From Deltaproteobacteria bacterium (GTDB taxonomy: Bacteria; Desulfobacterota; Syntrophia; Syntrophales; UBA5619): a DNA stretch of 12,726 nt. A program made the position numbers and the translations under genes. Shown piece after piece: positions 2,322-12,726 of the stretch. The stretch is taken from assembly GCA_026388345.1 (NCBI GenBank), contig JAPLJY010000057.1:1-12726 (forward strand). The letters are read 5' to 3'. The number at the start of each line of letters is the position of its first letter. Within the stretch, counting starts at the first letter, position 1. The notes under the pieces are model-generated. The model was not told the origin of the DNA. It searched no databases and saw only the letters and a program-made list of their open reading frames with translations.

Positions 2322-3123
2322 CAGAACCCTTCTGGGAACCCGACACTGCGATTTTCAAGAAACCTTTCATCAGATCCATGTCGGCAGCAGGACGGATCGG
2401 CACGGTCGCGCAGCCGGGGTGCTCCTTCCCCTTCTCTATCGCGTGGCCTCTCCGGGGGGAAAGGGGCAATTCGTATTTCAGCTGATCAAACGTTCTTCCC
2501 TGGTCCCTCAACCGGGCGATCTGAGCTTTCCCGGAGGCATGCTGCACCCCCTTCTGGACCGACTGTTGAGGCCTCTCCTGATCCACGGACCTTTTCCCAT
2601 TCTCGGGGGAAAGGCCAGGGGATATGCGCTTCAGAATAACGCACCAGCCTTCCCGTCGATCGCCCTTTTCCTGACCAACGCGCTGCGCGAATCCTGGGAG
2701 GAGATCCGCCTTTCCCCTGCCCGCGTCCGCTTCCTCGGCCCCCTGCCCGCTTACAACCTGACCCTTTTCCGGCGGACGATTTTTCCGCTCGCGGGCTTTG
2801 TGGAGAACCCTGTACTGCCGCGCCCGAACCGCGAGGTGGAAAAAATCGTGGAGATCCCCCTTTCATCCTTTTACGATGAGGAACATTTCGGCTGCTATCA
2901 GATCACTGCGCCCGATTCGGCAGGCCACAGACTGCTTCAATACCCTTGCCTGATCCATCGGGATTCCGACGGTGCAGACGAGGTGCTCTGGGGGGCTACC
3001 TTTCACATCATTATCAGCTTTCTTGGGATCGTCATGGATTATCGCCTTCCCGAGTGGAGGGATGGACCCGTCATCGCGAGAAACCTCCGTCCCGATTACC
3101 TGACAGGACGTTCCCGCTCCTGA
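2314..3123 (+). CDS. Nudix hydrolase, CoA-pyrophosphatase-like, with interrupted Nudix box
   Basis: This 269-residue protein is a Nudix-superfamily hydrolase related to CoA pyrophosphatases (YeaB/NudL type), which cut nucleoside diphosphates linked to another group. GDLSFPGG (68-75) matches the family's opening of the Nudix box, and ALRESWEEI (123-131) supplies the REx2EE metal-binding core. LWGATFHII (225-233) matches the WGxT segment common near the C-terminus of these enzymes. About 47 residues separate the two halves of the Nudix box, far more than the usual dozen or so. ATG 2314 was chosen because an AGAGG site sits just upstream and the start overlaps the YheT stop. Substrate is not predictable: CoA, ADP-ribose or another nucleoside diphosphate derivative are all possible. 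Confidence 0.82.
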   Translation: MDDRTLLGTRHCDFQETFHQIHVGSRTDRHGRAAGVLLPLLYRVASPGGKGQFVFQLIKRSSLVPQPGDLSFPGGMLHPLLDRLLRPLLIHGPFPILGGKARGYALQNNAPAFPSIALFLTNALRESWEEIRLSPARVRFLGPLPAYNLTLFRRTIFPLAGFVENPVLPRPNREVEKIVEIPLSSFYDEEHFGCYQITAPDSAGHRLLQYPCLIHRDSDGADEVLWGATFHIIISFLGIVMDYRLPEWRDGPVIARNLRPDYLTGRSRS

Positions 3124-3124
3124 C

Positions 3125-3148
3125 CCACTTTCCCGCTTGACAAAGTGG
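3125..3148. repeat. 7-bp inverted repeat between Nudix and aminotransferase genes
   Basis: CCACTTT at 3125-3131 and AAAGTGG at 3142-3148 are perfect inverted copies 10 bases apart. A TTGACA hexamer at 3137-3142 lies inside, without a convincing -10 element at normal spacing. It could be an operator over a weak promoter, or a weak transcript hairpin without a U tract. Function is uncertain. Confidence 0.3.
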
Positions 3149-3218
3149 CGCCTGTCAGAATAGCTTCGCTTCCACCGTCCGATTTGTGGAGCGAATCACG
3201 AAAAACGAGGTGATGGCG

Positions 3219-4361
3219 ATGATTACCCAGAGAGCGGCGGACATCCGGCCCTTCATTGTCATGGACGTTCTGGAAGCCGCGCAGGCGATGGAGCGCAATG
3301 GCGAAAATATCATTCATCTCGAAGTGGGCGAACCCGACTTCGATACCCCGGAGTGCATCAAAGCGGCTGGATTCCGCGCCCTGAACGAAGGCAGGACCCA
3401 CTACACCCACAGCCTGGGGCTCCTGGAGCTGAGGGAGGCAATCTCCGATCACTACCGGCAGCGTTACGGAGCAGCCGTTTCCCCGGATCAGGTCATCGTG
3501 ACCTCCGGCACCTCACCGGCGATGATGATCCTTTTCTCGACGATTCTCGAACGGGATGATGAGGTCATCATCTCCGATCCCCATTACGCCTGCTATCCCA
3601 ATTTCATCCGTTTCTTCGGCGGAAAGCCGGTCTGCGTCCCCGTCCATGAGGAGGAAGGATTCCAGTACACCCCGGCCGCCATCCGAAGGATGATCCATCC
3701 GCGCACCAAGGCCATTCTGATCAACTCCCCTTCCAACCCGACGGGCAATCTGCTGAGCCGGGAGAGAATGGAGGAAATCGCCTCATTTGGAGTTCCCGTC
3801 ATCTCCGACGAAATCTATCACGGACTGGTCTATGGGGAGACGGAGCACAGCATTCTGGAGTTCACCGACAATGCCTTCGTGCTGAACGGCTTCTCCAAGG
3901 CCTATGCGATGACGGGATGGCGATTGGGTTACCTCATCGCCCCCCCCTCCTTCATCCGTCCGATGCAGAAGATCCAGCAAAATCTTTTCATCTCCGCCAA
4001 TGCCTTCGTCCAATGGGCCGGTGTCGCCGCCCTCCGGGAGGCGGAACCGGACATGATCCGGATGAGGGGGCTCTACGATGAACGGAGAAGATTCATGATC
4101 CGTCGTCTGCGGGAACTGGGGATGGGCATCCGTGTCGAACCCACCGGCGCCTTCTATGTGCTCGGCAATATCAAGGCTTTGACCCGGAATTCTTACGAAT
4201 TTGCCTTCGATATCCTCAAACGGGCCCGTGTCGGCGTCGCCCCGGGCATTGACTTTGGTATGAACTGCGAGGGCTACCTCCGTTTCTCGTATGCCAATTC
4301 CCTGGAAAACATCCGGGAGGGGATGAACCGGCTGGAGAGCTATCTGAAGGAAAGCCGGTGA
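3219..4361 (+). CDS. PLP-dependent class I/II aminotransferase
   Basis: This 380-residue fold-type I aminotransferase transfers an amino group between an amino acid and a 2-oxo acid using pyridoxal phosphate. Seen in the sequence: the N-terminal substrate segment EVGEPDFDTP (35-44), YTHSLGLLELR (62-72), NPTG at 173-176, SDEIY (196-200, Asp197 for the PLP ring nitrogen), the Schiff-base Lys227 in GFSKAYAMTGWR, and Arg355 (RFSYA), which would bind the substrate carboxylate. It is full length for the aspartate/alanine aminotransferase-like group, but the substrate cannot be read from the sequence. In-frame GTG 3186 and ATG 3213 are alternative starts. ATG 3219 is preferred because GAGGTG at 3207-3212 lies 6 bases upstream. 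It overlaps the HAD gene by 4 bases (GTGA). Confidence 0.88.
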   Translation: MITQRAADIRPFIVMDVLEAAQAMERNGENIIHLEVGEPDFDTPECIKAAGFRALNEGRTHYTHSLGLLELREAISDHYRQRYGAAVSPDQVIVTSGTSPAMMILFSTILERDDEVIISDPHYACYPNFIRFFGGKPVCVPVHEEEGFQYTPAAIRRMIHPRTKAILINSPSNPTGNLLSRERMEEIASFGVPVISDEIYHGLVYGETEHSILEFTDNAFVLNGFSKAYAMTGWRLGYLIAPPSFIRPMQKIQQNLFISANAFVQWAGVAALREAEPDMIRMRGLYDERRRFMIRRLRELGMGIRVEPTGAFYVLGNIKALTRNSYEFAFDILKRARVGVAPGIDFGMNCEGYLRFSYANSLENIREGMNRLESYLKESR

Positions 4362-5159: not shown

Positions 5160-7055
5160 ATGAGTTTTGAAAACAATATGCACTCCCTGGATGACTGGAA
5201 AAAACTTTACCCCGAAAAATTCGCCGAGGAGGAGGTTGTTTTCAGCCACATCCGCCGGGGGGATCACATCTTTGTCGCCTCAGGCTGCGGCGAGCCTCAG
5301 TACCTTGTCCGGGCCATGGTGAATTATGTGGAATCCCATCCCAAGGCCTTCTTCGACACGGAAATCATCCATGTCTATTCTTTCGGCATCGCCCCCTATA
5401 CCGACCCGAAATTCAAACGTAATTTCCGTCACAACTCCTTTTTCATCGGAAACAACACCCGGGGCCCCGTAAATCAGGGGCTTGCCGACTATACGCCCGT
5501 TTCCCTTTCCGACGTGCCCGCCCTGATCAGGAGCGGCTCCGTCCGGATCGATGTGGCGCTGGTGCAGACCTGTCTTCCCGATGAGCACGGTTATCTGAGC
5601 CTCGGTATCAGCGTGGACATGGTCAAGGCCGCCACGGACAAGGCGTCCATGATCATCGCTCAGGTCAACGCCAACATGCCCCGCGTGCACGGTGACGGCT
5701 TCATCCACATCAAGGATGTTGAGTTCATCATCCGTCACGACGAGCCCCTCCTGGAACTCCCGGGAATCGAACTCAATGAGACGACGCAGCGCATCGGCAA
5801 CCATGTCTCCAGACTTGTCCAGGACGGCGACACGATCCAGGTGGGTTATGGAGGGCTTCCGAACGCTATTCTCGCCAACCTCTTCAACAAGAAACATCTC
5901 GGGGTGCATACCGAGCTCTTCAGCGATGGCCTGATGGATCTGATCAAGGCCGGGGTTATCGACAATTCCCAAAAAACGTTGAGCCCCGGGAAGACGGTCG
6001 CCGCCTTTTCCATGGGGAAGAGAGAAACCTATGAATTCCTCAACGACAACCCCTCCATTCTGTTCAGAACCATCGATTGGACAAACAATCCGCTCAACAT
6101 CGCCCGGCAAGTCAACATGGTCGCCATCAACAGCGCATTGGAGATCGACCTTACAGGCCAGGCCACATCAGATTCTATCGGAGGTACATTCTACAGCGGC
6201 GTGGGAGGTCACCAGGACTTCATGCGGGGCGCATTGATGGCCAGGGGCGGACGGACCATCCTCGCGATGAAATCCACGGCCATGAACGACACCATCTCCC
6301 GGATCGTTCCCTCTCTGCGCGAATCTGCCGGCATCACGCTGAACCGGGGGGATGTCCGTTATGTGGTCACCGAATACGGTATCGCCTATCTCCACGGAAA
6401 AAACGTCCGGGAGAGGGCAATGTCGCTCATCTCCATTGCCCACCCGAAATTCAGGCCCTGGCTCATCGAAGAGGCGAAGAAGCGAGGAATCATTTACCGG
6501 GATCAGGCCTTCATCCCCGGGAAACGAGGCGAGTATCCGGAAAATCTCGAGACCCATCGGACCACCAAAATCGGCCTCCAGCTATTCCTGCGTCCCGTCA
6601 AAATCAGCGATGAACCGCTTCTGAAGGATTTTTTCTACTCCCTGTCCGACAGAAGCCTGAACCGTCGTTTTCTTTCCAAGCGCAAAGACATGCCGCACGA
6701 ACGGCTCCAGGACTTTGTGATCATAGACTACACCCGGGAGGTGGTTATCCTGGGGGTTGTAGGATCTGCAGAAAGTGAACTCATCGTCGGGGTGGGGCAG
6801 TATGGCATCGATGAGGAATCGCATACGGCGGAGGTCGCCTTCGCAGTCCGCGATGACCACCACAACCGAGGCATCGGGCAGGAAATGCTCTCCTACCTGA
6901 CCTATCTCGCCAAAAGAGAGGGCCTTCTGGGCTTTACGGCTGAGGTCCTGATCGACAACAAACCGATGTTGCACGTATTCGAAAAAGGTGGCTTCGATAT
7001 CAAGAAAAAAAGCGATGCCGGGGTTTACGATTTGAAAATGGCTTTCCGGGGATAG
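5160..7055 (+). CDS. Acetyl-CoA hydrolase/CoA-transferase fused to a GNAT acetyltransferase domain
   Basis: This 631-residue protein has two parts. Residues about 12-465 form an acetyl-CoA hydrolase/transferase of the 4-hydroxybutyrate CoA-transferase type. HTELFSDG places the catalytic glutamate, which forms the CoA thioester, at Glu252. GGLPNAI (231-237) and GVGGHQDFMRGA (347-358) are typical glycine-rich CoA-binding segments. Residues about 475-631 form a GNAT domain beginning with LFLRPVKISDEPLLKDFF, with the acetyl-CoA pyrophosphate loop in VRDDHHNRGIGQEML (563-577). The start region resembles GNAT domains of Pat-type protein acetyltransferases, which are usually fused to acyl-CoA synthetase-like domains. 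ATG 5160 follows AGGGG at 5147-5151. It probably moves CoA between acetyl-CoA and another acid, and the GNAT part may acetylate protein lysines; the second role is inference. It leads a three-gene operon. Confidence 0.88.
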   Translation: MSFENNMHSLDDWKKLYPEKFAEEEVVFSHIRRGDHIFVASGCGEPQYLVRAMVNYVESHPKAFFDTEIIHVYSFGIAPYTDPKFKRNFRHNSFFIGNNTRGPVNQGLADYTPVSLSDVPALIRSGSVRIDVALVQTCLPDEHGYLSLGISVDMVKAATDKASMIIAQVNANMPRVHGDGFIHIKDVEFIIRHDEPLLELPGIELNETTQRIGNHVSRLVQDGDTIQVGYGGLPNAILANLFNKKHLGVHTELFSDGLMDLIKAGVIDNSQKTLSPGKTVAAFSMGKRETYEFLNDNPSILFRTIDWTNNPLNIARQVNMVAINSALEIDLTGQATSDSIGGTFYSGVGGHQDFMRGALMARGGRTILAMKSTAMNDTISRIVPSLRESAGITLNRGDVRYVVTEYGIAYLHGKNVRERAMSLISIAHPKFRPWLIEEAKKRGIIYRDQAFIPGKRGEYPENLETHRTTKIGLQLFLRPVKISDEPLLKDFFYSLSDRSLNRRFLSKRKDMPHERLQDFVIIDYTREVVILGVVGSAESELIVGVGQYGIDEESHTAEVAFAVRDDHHNRGIGQEMLSYLTYLAKREGLLGFTAEVLIDNKPMLHVFEKGGFDIKKKSDAGVYDLKMAFRG

Positions 7056-9540: not shown

Positions 9541-9585
9541 TGGTCGGGGCGGAGTGATTTGAACACTCGACATCCTGCTCCCAAA
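9541..9585 (-). other. Attachment site: 3' half of tRNA-Pro(TGG)
   Basis: Read on the - strand, this segment matches a tRNA from the anticodon loop to CCA. It has the loop TTTGGGA (9585-9579, anticodon TGG), the 3' anticodon stem GCAGG, a 5-base variable loop, a T-arm GAGTG/TTCAAAT/CACTC, acceptor strand CGCCCCG, discriminator A and CCA. The expected 5' anticodon strand CCTGC is absent upstream; the bases at 9586-9590 do not pair. Only this half is present, as left by integration of an element into the tRNA gene. The tRNA 5' half should lie at the far end of the element, rejoined to a phage-supplied 3' half. The exact crossover inside the segment is unknown. Confidence 0.82.
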
Positions 9586-9602
9586 AGAGCCATAAGGCTC
9601 TT
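9585..9602 (-). terminator. Weak terminator-like hairpin at the phage edge
   Basis: AAGAGCC (9585-9591) and GGCTCTT (9596-9602) form a perfect 7-bp stem around a 4-base loop. On the - strand it ends in four T residues, two of them stem T and two after it, as would suit the end of the phage lysis operon. On the + strand it is followed after 4 bases by tttt and could also stop the mutase operon. It touches the tRNA fragment, so it belongs to the element. Strength is doubtful. Confidence 0.4.
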
Positions 9603-10354: not shown

Positions 10355-10831
10355 TCACGCAAAAAATTCATGATGCCCAATGGTCTTGATCACTTTCATT
10401 CCAACCTTCAGCAATTTGTCCCTTTGACCTGGTCCCGCCGTTTTCGGATTCATGTATTGGCAGCAGTTCACTTTTGCAAGATCCGGATCGCGGGGAATCT
10501 CCCCCTGCAGCATCCCCGTGGCGATCGCACAACACTCTTGCAGGGCCTTACGTTTACGATATTCCTCGACCCAAGATGAGGCGATTTTCACCGATTCGTC
10601 GTAGTAACTGACTCCCGCCTCTGGCATCGTCCAGGAGAACTGCCAGCGCCACAGAACGACCTCTTTGATGGTCTTACCGTCCCAACTCCGGTGATCGACT
10701 CGTTCGAGGATCACGGTCCCGACAGCGATCTGTCCCTCTCTTGGCTCTCCTCCTGCTTCTCGTTCGATGCAGAGGCCCATGAGTTGCCAGTCCGTGAGCG
10801 AGTTAAATGTTTTTTTGTCTTCTGGTTTCAT
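10355..10831 (-). CDS. SleB-type cell-wall hydrolase (phage endolysin)
   Basis: This 158-residue protein matches the Hydrolase_2/SleB family, which cleaves peptidoglycan glycan strands. Visible landmarks in order: CIEREAGGEPREGQIAVGTV (21-40), where Glu25 aligns with the family's catalytic glutamate; VVLWRWQFSW (58-67); a helix followed by GMLQG (106-110); and the C-terminal GHHEFF (152-157), matching the usual GxHxFY ending. There is no signal peptide or membrane helix, so release depends on a holin, and two candidate membrane proteins flank it. ATG 10831 was chosen because AGAGGGG lies upstream and it overlaps the previous stop as ATGA. An earlier in-frame start at 10864 would extend it into the preceding gene. 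It is probably the lysis enzyme of the prophage. Confidence 0.85.
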   Translation of the reverse strand: MKPEDKKTFNSLTDWQLMGLCIEREAGGEPREGQIAVGTVILERVDHRSWDGKTIKEVVLWRWQFSWTMPEAGVSYYDESVKIASSWVEEYRKRKALQECCAIATGMLQGEIPRDPDLAKVNCCQYMNPKTAGPGQRDKLLKVGMKVIKTIGHHEFFA

Positions 10832-11235
10832 GACGGCCCCTCTGAAATGACGACCTGTCCGCACTCAGGCTTGCATCCGTCCTGATTACAGTTAATGATG
10901 TGGGAATGATGATTGACCCGGCGCCACATCTCGGCGTGGTCCTCCTTGTTGGTGTCGAGGTCTGTCTGGTCCGCCTTTCCCTTTATGTCGATGCACATTT
11001 CGTTCATCTTAGTCATTAAGAGTTTGAAACCCACCTTCAGGCCGACACCGAGCAAGATCCCGACAAGAGCGATCAGGGCCGCAAGAATTATCTGCATCAG
11101 GTCCACGTGCTCATACCATGAGGGTGCAGTGGCGGCTGTTGCCTGGATTACGGCGGCGGCGTCAATGACGGACCAGATCAGCATCAGGACCAACAAAAGA
11201 ATTCCGCTCAATATTCTCATTCTGAATGGCGCCAT
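10828..11235 (-). CDS. Phage membrane protein of the lysis cassette, unknown exact role
   Basis: This 135-residue protein has a first hydrophobic helix at about 8-24, followed by AAA at 26-28 so that a cleaved signal peptide is possible. A second membrane helix lies at about 46-66, and then a polar tail. The tail contains HAEMWRRVNHHSH (100-112) and three cysteines (116, 121, 125) close to several histidines, a possible metal site. Similar RVNHH-containing tails occur in small phage proteins. Placed just before the endolysin (ATGA overlap), it may be a holin, antiholin or spanin-like component; nothing decides among these. The start could also be GTG 11271, which overlaps the upstream stop as GTGA. 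ATG 11235 is preferred because GGGGG lies about 10 bases upstream, but both remain possible. Confidence 0.65.
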   Translation of the reverse strand: MAPFRMRILSGILLLVLMLIWSVIDAAAVIQATAATAPSWYEHVDLMQIILAALIALVGILLGVGLKVGFKLLMTKMNEMCIDIKGKADQTDLDTNKEDHAEMWRRVNHHSHIINCNQDGCKPECGQVVISEGPS

Positions 11236-11267
11236 TAGATCTTTTCCCCCTTTTCTTACGATTGAAA

Positions 11268-11576
11268 TCACGTAAACGAATAATACCGATCTATCCTTTT
11301 CACCGTCGCAATAAACGGGATCTCCGCCTCATAAGACTTGCATTGATCCAGCAGGACCTGGCTGCCGGTGAATGCGACATGTTTTTCGTCTCCCATCATG
11401 AACTGGATCGTCAGGCATGATGTCGCGTTGTATTTGCTGTTCTTGACCCTGTACCCGGTGATCATAATCTCCTTGTTCAGGATATCGGCGATCTTTAATT
11501 TTGAACCATCCAGCGGCACGTGGTCCTTGGCGAAATCGCCGAATCGTTTAGGCGGCGGCTTCTGTAATTCCTCCAT
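11268..11576 (-). CDS. Small conserved-looking protein partner of the reverse transcriptase
   Basis: This 102-residue protein begins inside the last 29 bases of the reverse transcriptase gene, with GAGGAG about 10 bases before ATG 11576, so its translation should be coupled to it. An earlier ATG at 11633 is in frame but lies deeper in the RT gene. The N-terminus is basic and proline-rich. The rest alternates beta strands: KIADILNKEIMITGYRV (28-44), CLTIQFMMGDEKHVAFTGS (54-72), VLLDQC (74-79) and IPFIATVKRIDRYYSF (86-101). This pattern, with an FTGSxVLL segment, recalls small OB-fold-like phage proteins that bind single-stranded nucleic acid, but the match is from memory and pattern only. It is not the four-helix Avd protein usual in DGRs. 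Function is unknown. Confidence 0.65.
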   Translation of the reverse strand: MEELQKPPPKRFGDFAKDHVPLDGSKLKIADILNKEIMITGYRVKNSKYNATSCLTIQFMMGDEKHVAFTGSQVLLDQCKSYEAEIPFIATVKRIDRYYSFT

Positions 11577-12579
11577 GTCTGGCCAGCTCCTCCATTCGCT
11601 TGAATTCAACGGCGAGACGGAAATTCTGTGCATTGGCCCACTTCATCCAGCCGTTGATGGATGCCACGGACCCGCGAAAACGATCGAGTGTGATTCTCCC
11701 AGCCGCCAGCAGTCCCGGCAGTTTACCCAACCGCCGCCGGATACGGATCGATGTTGATTTTCGCAGTAAGACATATCCTGGAAAATGCCGGTATCCCAGG
11801 AAATCAACGCCGCGGGATACCGGGAACAGATCGCACTTGCTCAGTGTCAACGTGAGGTGCTCAGACAGAAACCTCTCGATATCCTGGGCCGCGCGATTCA
11901 GCACGGACTTGTCATCACCAAACAGCAGGAAATCGTCGCAGTATCGGACGTAATCCTTGACCCGCAGCGTCTGTTTAACGAATATGTCCAGTTCGCTCAG
12001 GTAGAGATTCCCCATCCACTGGCTGGTATAATTGCCGATCGGAACGTTCTTCCCGTCGGGTGTGCTGTAGATGATCTTATGGAACAGATCCAGGGTGCCG
12101 GGACATTTGATCTTGTTTTTGATGATCTGAAACATGATCGCGTGATCGACGGACGGGTAGAACTTCGAGATATCCATTTTCAGGCAATAGCGATTCCGCC
12201 GGACAAACTCCATCGTGCGCCGGCTGCCCGCGTGAAGGCCGCGGCCGCGGATGCAGGCATAGGAATCGGAGATAAAGAGTTTGGTCCAGATCGGCTCCGC
12301 TACCTGCATCAGCGCATGATGAATAATTCTGTCCGGGGCAAACGGCAGAATGTAGATCATCCTTTTCTTCGGCTCATAAATCCACTTGGTCTTGTAGGGC
12401 GAAGGTTGAAACGTCTTATGGACCAGCAATTCCCGGATTCCGGCCAGGTTGTTTTCCGCGTCGAGCTCGAAACGGCGCACGGCGGCCTTGAAAGATTTTC
12501 CCTTCCGGGTTTCTTGCCAGGCAAGGTGAATATTCTCCGCAGTCGTCAGTTTCTCGTATAGATTCCCGTGTCGTTTCAT
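11548..12579 (-). CDS. Reverse transcriptase, diversity-generating-retroelement type
   Basis: This 343-residue protein is a complete reverse transcriptase. Motifs in order: PDRIIHHAL (82-90), SYACIRGRGLHAG (106-118), YCLKMDISKFYPSVDH (131-146) with catalytic Asp136, PIGNYTSQ (180-187), RYCDDFLLF (212-220) with the YxDD aspartates 215 and 216, and GVDFLGYRHF (257-266), followed by a basic thumb. IGxxxSQ in motif 4 is the hallmark of DGR-type enzymes, where most other RTs have QGxxxSP. There is no maturase, HNH or protease domain, so it is not a standard group II intron protein, and the retron VTG motif is absent. The start is ATG 12579: a stop codon lies two codons upstream. It has no adjacent ribosome-binding site. 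It lies in the phage late operon. Confidence 0.88.
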   Translation of the reverse strand: MKRHGNLYEKLTTAENIHLAWQETRKGKSFKAAVRRFELDAENNLAGIRELLVHKTFQPSPYKTKWIYEPKKRMIYILPFAPDRIIHHALMQVAEPIWTKLFISDSYACIRGRGLHAGSRRTMEFVRRNRYCLKMDISKFYPSVDHAIMFQIIKNKIKCPGTLDLFHKIIYSTPDGKNVPIGNYTSQWMGNLYLSELDIFVKQTLRVKDYVRYCDDFLLFGDDKSVLNRAAQDIERFLSEHLTLTLSKCDLFPVSRGVDFLGYRHFPGYVLLRKSTSIRIRRRLGKLPGLLAAGRITLDRFRGSVASINGWMKWANAQNFRLAVEFKRMEELARHGGITEAAA

Positions 12580-12589
12580 CGTTTAATTT

Positions 12590-12630
12590 GTCGCGGGCGA
12601 CGTTCGCTTTCACTACTGGCCGCCCGCGAC
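12590..12630 (-). promoter_or_regulatory. 10-bp hairpin in the leader of the reverse transcriptase gene
   Basis: GTCGCGGGCG (12590-12599) and CGCCCGCGAC (12621-12630) are perfect inverted copies with a 21-base loop. On the - strand the hairpin starts in the last codons of the upstream gene, holds that gene's stop in its loop, and ends 10 bases before the RT start. The sequence GGAGG lies at its 5' foot (12634-12630). There is no T tract, so it is not a standard terminator. It may control RT translation or be part of a structured RNA. Confidence 0.6.
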
Positions 12631-12726
12631 CTCCGCTATGTGTTTTGCCTCCGGATCATCCGGAGACAAGGCCATGAAATCCAGCCAGGAGTTTCGCTCA
12701 AAATTGCAATCCTGTATCCGAGACGA
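12613..12726 (-). CDS. Unknown phage protein, C-terminal 37 residues (5' part outside window)
   Basis: On the - strand the frame is open from the window edge at 12726 to a TAG stop at 12615-12613, encoding 37 residues that end in SPDDPEAKHIAEVAGGQ. The open frame, its direction and its position 33 bases before the reverse transcriptase start suggest the end of the preceding gene of the same operon. The visible piece shows no recognisable domain. It does not look like the C-terminus of a DGR C-type-lectin target, nor like an Avd protein, but it is too short to exclude much. It is followed by the RT leader hairpin. Confidence 0.5.
   Translation of the reverse strand, partial: SSRIQDCNFERNSWLDFMALSPDDPEAKHIAEVAGGQ

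Follow-up and report, generated by a model that had tools for sequence, protein, structure and literature searches.

The mechanism of diversity-generating retroelements (DGRs) is known largely from one system, BPP-1, in which the accessory protein Avd is required according to two reports (PMC12875486, PMC6642488). Avd is present in most but not all DGRs and is not a required feature of them. Besides Avd, PMC10053308 names HRDC and MSL as DGR accessories, together with a protein from Wu et al. 2018 that has no Pfam or CDD entry; PMC3240598 describes HRDC as an alternative to Avd. Counted from its attachment (att) site, the BPP-1 locus runs bbp1-4, brt (encoding the reverse transcriptase, RT), the template repeat (TR), avd, and the variable repeat (VR) in mtd, with the TR upstream of the RT. 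Here we describe an RT gene at the end of contig JAPLJY010000057.1 from a Deltaproteobacteria bacterium (GenBank assembly GCA_026388345.1); the analyzed window is the entire contig of 12,726 nt. This seemingly lone RT most likely belongs to a cut, otherwise ordinary DGR. In the reading that we hold with good confidence, a DGR RT lies in a likely tRNA-integrated prophage, the contig stops within the 3' end of the TR, and a 102-aa gene overlapping the end of the RT gene, hereafter the accessory, likely replaces Avd as the nucleic-acid-binding partner of the RT.

The window, with VR and TR placed as in its relatives, shares with BPP-1 a layout in which VR, TR, spacer and RT are followed by a small gene that overlaps the RT, by more small genes, and by an att site within the 3' portion of a tRNA gene. 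Both RTs are of the DGR type, and the spacer between TR and RT measures 144 nt in BPP-1 and 137 nt in the window. Bbp1, encoded next to the att site, weakly resembles the window holin (29% identity over 41 residues, E = 1e-4, in a comparison of seven proteins), and by our own reading bbp1-4 are lysis genes, the record naming them only Bbp1-4. The two systems differ in that BPP-1 carries avd between VR and TR, whereas no avd was seen in the window's branch; the RTs are 35% identical, and Bbp4, whose gene overlaps brt, proved unrelated to the accessory on comparison. The Rfam family RF03022 (Phage_DGR) covers the BPP-1 spacer and passes its gathering score there, whereas the window spacer does not reach RF03022.

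Two viruses with archaeal hosts, ANMV-1 and the Methanosarcinales virus vir525, differ from the window in host and resemble it in organization. In both, a homologue of the accessory (44% and 45% identity, respectively) follows directly 3' of the RT, and an adenine-biased TR/VR pair lies 5' of it, with 17/17 and 17/19 mismatches at A. The vir525 target has an Mtd-type domain, as expected for the target of the window. A figure legend in PMC4372165 names an Avd ORF in ANMV-1. The sole ORF between adtA and the RT of this virus (19757-19951 of locus L009, AJP62063) encodes 64 aa; its first half is the TR read in frame, and it is not Avd-like.

The RT of the window is a genuine DGR enzyme. The motif IGxxxSQ is a hallmark of DGR RTs, and an earlier sequence-only reading of this DNA, which reported that motif together with an intact YCDD active site, was right on both: IGNYTSQ occupies residues 181-187 and YCDD residues 213-216 of the 343-aa protein. 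The protein matches phrog_1423 ("Reverse transcriptase") far beyond chance (E = 6.3e-118) and RVT_1 as well. By tblastn, 159 phage records match it, the nearest named one being vir525 (57.5% identity), with ANMV-1 at 39.5% and BPP-1 Brt at 35.4%. A profile built from eight relatives scores 236 bits against PDB entry 8ub7, a 328-aa RT of the same length as BPP-1 Brt, and at most 101 bits against the next chain. We also placed the RT in a tree of 141 RTs, kept from 245 rows after dropping matches shorter than about 880 nt and, next, near-copies at 82% identity; the outgroup consisted of two group II RTs, with retron and UG RTs left out, and support values are SH-aLRT alone, a quick method. The 139 DGR-type RTs separate from the two group II RTs with support 100, and the window RT falls within a 74-row branch with support 98, inside the DGR part of the tree. 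BPP-1, vir215 and ANMV-1 form long branches. When the outgroup and two long rows are removed, the window RT lies in a 47-row accessory-bearing set, again with support 98.

The sequence-only reading had also entertained another job for a DGR-related RT, such as phage defence or exclusion; we considered such a co-opted enzyme, acting in defence or superinfection exclusion with no TR. PADLOC RT models do match the protein (RT at 140 bits, RT_UG17 at 93 bits, neither model carrying a cut-off), as would be expected of any RT. The NCBIfam Drt, AbiA and retron models, in contrast, reach no more than 57 bits where their cut-offs are 200-600 (retron St85 57 of 235 bits, Drt3a 53 of 200), and the group II intron RT/maturase model TIGR04416 also stays under its cut-off (101 of 300 bits). 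With the RT inside a TR/VR-bearing branch and the TR end and spacer at the window edge, we regard a defence role as extremely improbable and do not retain that suggestion.

The same reading saw no DGR parts around the RT, which is contradicted by the sequence upstream of the gene. The 147 nt 5' of the RT align in five relatives (L001-L005) with the conserved spacer and with ~10 nt at the 3' end of the TR. In L003 and L004 the identity between TR and VR stops at the same ...CGGA, and the 137-nt spacer compares with 125-149 nt in L001-L007. From this alignment with relatives we infer that the last ten nucleotides of the contig are the 3' end of the TR; the DGR is therefore cut by the contig end, and the DGR partners of the RT are missing because the contig ends there. 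A self-comparison of the window found no TR/VR pair, which is expected if the VR and most of the TR lie beyond the edge. Efforts to extend the contig gave nothing: a single-sequence RT search of genome contigs found no relative, the 30 nt at the window edge occur in no viral contig by exact scan, and a 25-nt piece of the spacer is present in 0/280 loci. The earlier remark that no gap for a template exists between the RT and the lysis genes concerns a place where no TR is expected, since in BPP-1 and in the relatives the TR lies upstream of the RT. Its suggestion that TR, VR and target lie just to the right of position 12,726 fares better, being supported by the TR end and spacer at the edge and by the repeat pairs of the relatives, although the window's own VR was not seen.

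TR/VR pairs were sought in related loci as ungapped repeat pairs in which mismatches are cheap only at the adenines of one copy. All 11 of the first relatives scanned (L001-L011) have a pair just 5' of the RT, with mismatches at A ranging from 17/19 (L008) to all; L001 holds its VR only in part. For a larger set we kept the 80 best of 389 IMG/VR relatives retrieved with an RT alignment, which are top matches and not a random draw. A pair meeting our thresholds was called in 63 of these viral loci, every one in the order VR-TR-RT, and 1085 of 1109 mismatches in these pairs face TR adenines. The median distances are 130 nt from TR to RT and 77 nt from VR to TR, so that as a rule there is no room for Avd between VR and RT (L052, with 426 nt, is an exception). 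Among the 17 loci without a called pair, 13 have less than 450 nt 5' of the RT; limiting the search to 900 nt 5' of the RT recovers pairs in L036 (14/14 mismatches at A), L019 (10/11) and L020 (10/11) and none in L078. The target genes of L003 and vir525 contain the second Mtd domain, PF21916, so the target of the window, just past position 12,726, is by analogy likely an Mtd-type tail receptor-binding gene. L003 has in addition a second VR (19830-19945), with 18/18 mismatches at TR adenines, which lies 10 kb away from the TR in a gene for a 235-aa protein; a single TR appears to serve two targets there.

A decayed DGR, in which the RT frame is open and the TR, VR or target beyond the edge is broken, would also fit a sequence that stops at position 12,726, and loci with missing parts do exist, L127 among them. 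However, the RT motifs, the accessory and the spacer are conserved in the window, 63 of the 80 relatives have an adenine-biased TR/VR pair, and most of the misses have little sequence 5' of the RT. We therefore consider decay a very unlikely explanation and infer that the TR, VR and target of the window are intact. L127 itself carries, at 2631-3195, a TR/VR pair (10/11 mismatches at A) and an accessory with no RT between them; its RT has possibly been deleted, or an RT may act from elsewhere.

Truncation at this point is a pattern in the window's RT branch. Counting contig ends within 6 kb of the RT (4 kb for the branch of Avd-bearing loci), we found 21/48 upstream ends and 3/43 downstream ends within 700 nt of the RT start (Fisher p = 8.5e-5), a limit chosen after the list was seen. 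The Avd branch shows no such asymmetry (7/19 upstream versus 21/59 downstream). Public contigs of the window's branch thus tend to end in the TR-VR zone, and so a lone DGR RT met at a contig edge in genome scans may be a cut DGR; this holds for the window's branch and not for the Avd branch.

The spacer is predicted to be a structured RNA region of the DGR. It folds better than shuffled sequences (z = -3.97), and RNAalifold on 42 of 55 extracted spacers gives 24 consensus pairs, 16 of them with at least one kept two-sided change, mostly within a long stem preceding the RT start. The Rfam family RF02921 (RT-14) matches positions 12589-12691 over the whole model, in the right place and on the right strand, with 25.9 bits (E = 0.082) against a gathering score of 48.1. 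Twenty relatives were searched as well: RF02921 reaches its gathering score in none of them, RF03020 (RT-17) does so within the TR-RT gap of two more distant ones (L122 and L145), and no Rfam family does in the spacers of the other 18. Given the sub-gathering RT-14 match and the RT-17 matches in two relatives, the window spacer probably represents a variant form of an RNA type already described.

The sequence-only reading noted correctly that the downstream neighbour of the RT is not Avd, and this proved a good lead, since a conserved gene was found where Avd is not. The 102-aa product finds no family in Pfam, NCBIfam (chance-level matches only), PHROGs or PADLOC. Avd itself (PF22296/PF05635) was considered and rejected: there is no Pfam match, six Avd proteins give no hhalign match to the accessory profile, and the predicted fold is not a helix bundle. 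As the accessory matches no Pfam model, no HRDC or MSL domain was found in it either; it thus resembles Avd, HRDC and MSL in being a small gene tied to DGR RTs, these being mutual alternatives, and differs from them in sequence family. A profile search collected 965 proteins, whereas tblastn against 50,697 phage records matched only vir525 and ANMV-1. The small genes that follow the RT in Vibrio, Aeromonas, Pseudoalteromonas, crAss-like and vir215 phages were compared and are not the accessory. Our literature searches, which did not cover Wu et al. 2018, found no text naming the accessory, and it may be the unnamed protein listed there; Wu et al. are said to call some DGR accessories CH1/CH2.

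An AlphaFold2 model of the accessory (pLDDT 83.6) has five strands and short helices, and the fold is predicted to be OB-fold-like. Its two best viral fold matches bear the name RT or group II intron-encoded protein (E = 3.5e-6 and 7.6e-6). These matches, in which the aligned part of the target is not visible, are the sole basis on which a fusion of RT and accessory might be proposed; hhalign of crAss RT tails against the accessory gives no significant sequence match.

We next compared the distribution of the accessory with that of Avd. In the 80 loci of the window's branch, the accessory overlaps the RT end in 77, in all 77 by HMM alignment, and Avd was seen in 0/80, of which 21 have less than 700 nt upstream. 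In the comparison branch, the best 80 of at least 586 loci fetched with an alignment of Avd-type RTs and not a random sample, Avd is present in 74, the other six being cut within 400 nt upstream, and the accessory in 0/80, of which 16 have less than 300 nt downstream. No Avd occurs among the window genes scanned, though the usual place of avd lies past the edge. Mapped on the RT tree, the accessory/Avd state requires 1 change versus 43.4 in shuffles. Starting from the accessory instead, in the best 80 of at least 114 loci (again not random, and some on the same contigs as loci of the RT sample), the RT is just upstream in 73, within 60 nt in 66 of them, and just downstream in 3. In L154, L156 and L162 the accessory stands between VR and TR, the place of avd, with 24/24, 24/24 and 16/16 mismatches at A; L154 and L156 are near-copies (594/613 nt), and L156 is cut before the RT.

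Genome contigs show the same association. There, the accessory adjoins an RT in 14 of 15 loci (one locus is cut by the contig start and one lies ~300 nt off), none of the 15 has an Avd, and 11 have an adenine-biased TR/VR pair 5' of the RT, one as a third-ranked repeat and one short. Their bins, whose names can be wrong for metagenomes, are Bacillota, Omnitrophota, Bacteroidota, Nitrospirae, Desulfobacterales/Deltaproteobacteria, Chlorobiaceae, Rickettsiales, Spirochaetaceae, Dehalococcoidia and Methanosaeta.

It could be argued that the DGR is ordinary and the accessory a hitchhiker, a phage gene with no role in mutagenic retrohoming that encodes, say, a small single-strand-binding or regulatory protein. 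In favour of this, the window places the accessory within a lysis-side operon, and the protein is no more than mildly basic; the gene is also missing from some DGRs of the branch, and three loci carry it without an intact RT next to it. Yet the vir525 homologue, likewise placed after the RT, is followed by genes leading to tail genes, and in L162 and the two near-copies it precedes the TR. A passenger would also have to account for the contrast of 77/80 with 0/80 in the Avd branch, for the overlap with the RT ORF in every one of the 77, and for its position beside RTs in contigs whose bins cover nine groups of bacteria and one archaeon. We judge hitchhiking unlikely, less so than decay. The accessory is instead likely a conserved, family-less protein of predicted OB type that stands in the place of Avd across a broad DGR lineage, and in this Avd-less lineage it is presumably the nucleic-acid-binding partner of the RT.

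Judging from the relatives and BPP-1, the RT would start within the spacer and copy the TR-spacer RNA, making errors at the adenines of the template. The cDNA would be written over the VR, which would form the end of a likely Mtd-type tail receptor-binding gene just past position 12,726. The accessory would take the role of Avd, with putative binding to the RT or to the RNA/cDNA and a putative need in retrohoming.

On a wider scale, we lean towards a second class of DGR machinery, in which an unrelated OB-fold protein, produced in step with the RT, has taken over from the pentameric Avd in one broad lineage. Jointly with this, and with the same modest preference, the replacement lineage would reach from archaeal viruses to phages and prophages whose contigs were binned to many phyla of bacteria. 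Several observations weigh against replacement as set out here. L056 and L057 lack the accessory and L022 has a remnant; three crAss-like phages and vir215 lie within the branch, and the tested genes after their RTs are not the accessory; L115, L164 and L276 carry the accessory without an adjacent intact RT; and the long-branched ANMV-1 RT joins the Avd side once the outgroup is dropped. The locus samples are top matches, not random, with some near-copies among them, and the window lacks a visible VR of its own. Were a second class real, adenine mutagenesis and retrohoming would not depend on the fold of Avd. With no Avd seen and a different small protein linked to the RT, so broad a lineage offers a natural test of which DGR parts are essential, and the accessory is a candidate helper in the DGRs of archaeal viruses.

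In L164, the accessory (2983-4083) runs into a long extension that by eye resembles a homing-endonuclease-type insertion near the C-terminus, with no RT in the 3 kb examined.

Features of the 12,726-nt window around the RT gene, listed from the contig end inward.
Feature	Position	Strand	Basis
Putative 3' end of the template repeat, last ~10 nt	12717..12726	-	Alignment with L001-L005; cut by contig end
TR-RT spacer, predicted to be structured DGR RNA	12580..12716	-	137 nt
DGR reverse transcriptase, 343 aa	11548..12579	-	phrog_1423, RVT_1, PDB profile search, tree
Conserved accessory gene, 102 aa	11268..11576	-	Start (11576) judged from homologues; 29-nt overlap with RT end
ORF of 147 aa with hydrophobic stretches (by eye)	10828..11271	-	ORF; position in lysis cluster; family matches all sub-threshold
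Endolysin, SleB-type cell wall hydrolase	10355..10864	-	PF07486, E = 1.9e-14
Holin with three transmembrane segments (3-TM), 220 aa	9718..10380	-	PF11351, E = 8.1e-7
tRNA-Pro(UGG) gene, 3' half	9541..9589	-	By eye: TGG anticodon region, T arm, acceptor strand, CCA

The gene order 3' of the RT is the 102-aa gene, the 147-aa ORF, the SleB-type endolysin and the 3-TM holin, all on the minus strand and overlapping; the sequence-only reading was right to place the RT in one run with an endolysin (PF07486) and a holin (PF11351). The holin is 41% identical to the product of gene 12819-13406 in L003. RTs neighbouring lysis genes are not unusual: BalMu-1 has the order RT, holin, small ORF, amidase, and in nine annotated crAss-like records the RT is followed by a holin and a LysB-like gene in five, by an unnamed and a LysB-like gene in one, and by neither in three.

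Beyond the holin lies the 3' half of a tRNA-Pro(UGG) gene, whose T arm reads GAGTG-TTCAAAT-CACTC and for which ARAGORN makes no call. Judged from its sequence, it is likely the remnant of a prophage attachment site and would mark the prophage's left end; the genes further left are ordinary chromosomal ones, and no integrase was found within the window.

Two further observations concern gene organization. A plasmid of Ideonella dechloratans (L258, 3382-6781) carries two RT genes and two avd-annotated genes in tandem, next to a phage tail gene and an integrase. In the window itself, a plus-strand gene at 5160-7055 encodes a CoA-transferase/acetyl-CoA hydrolase with a GNAT acetyltransferase domain fused to its C-terminus.
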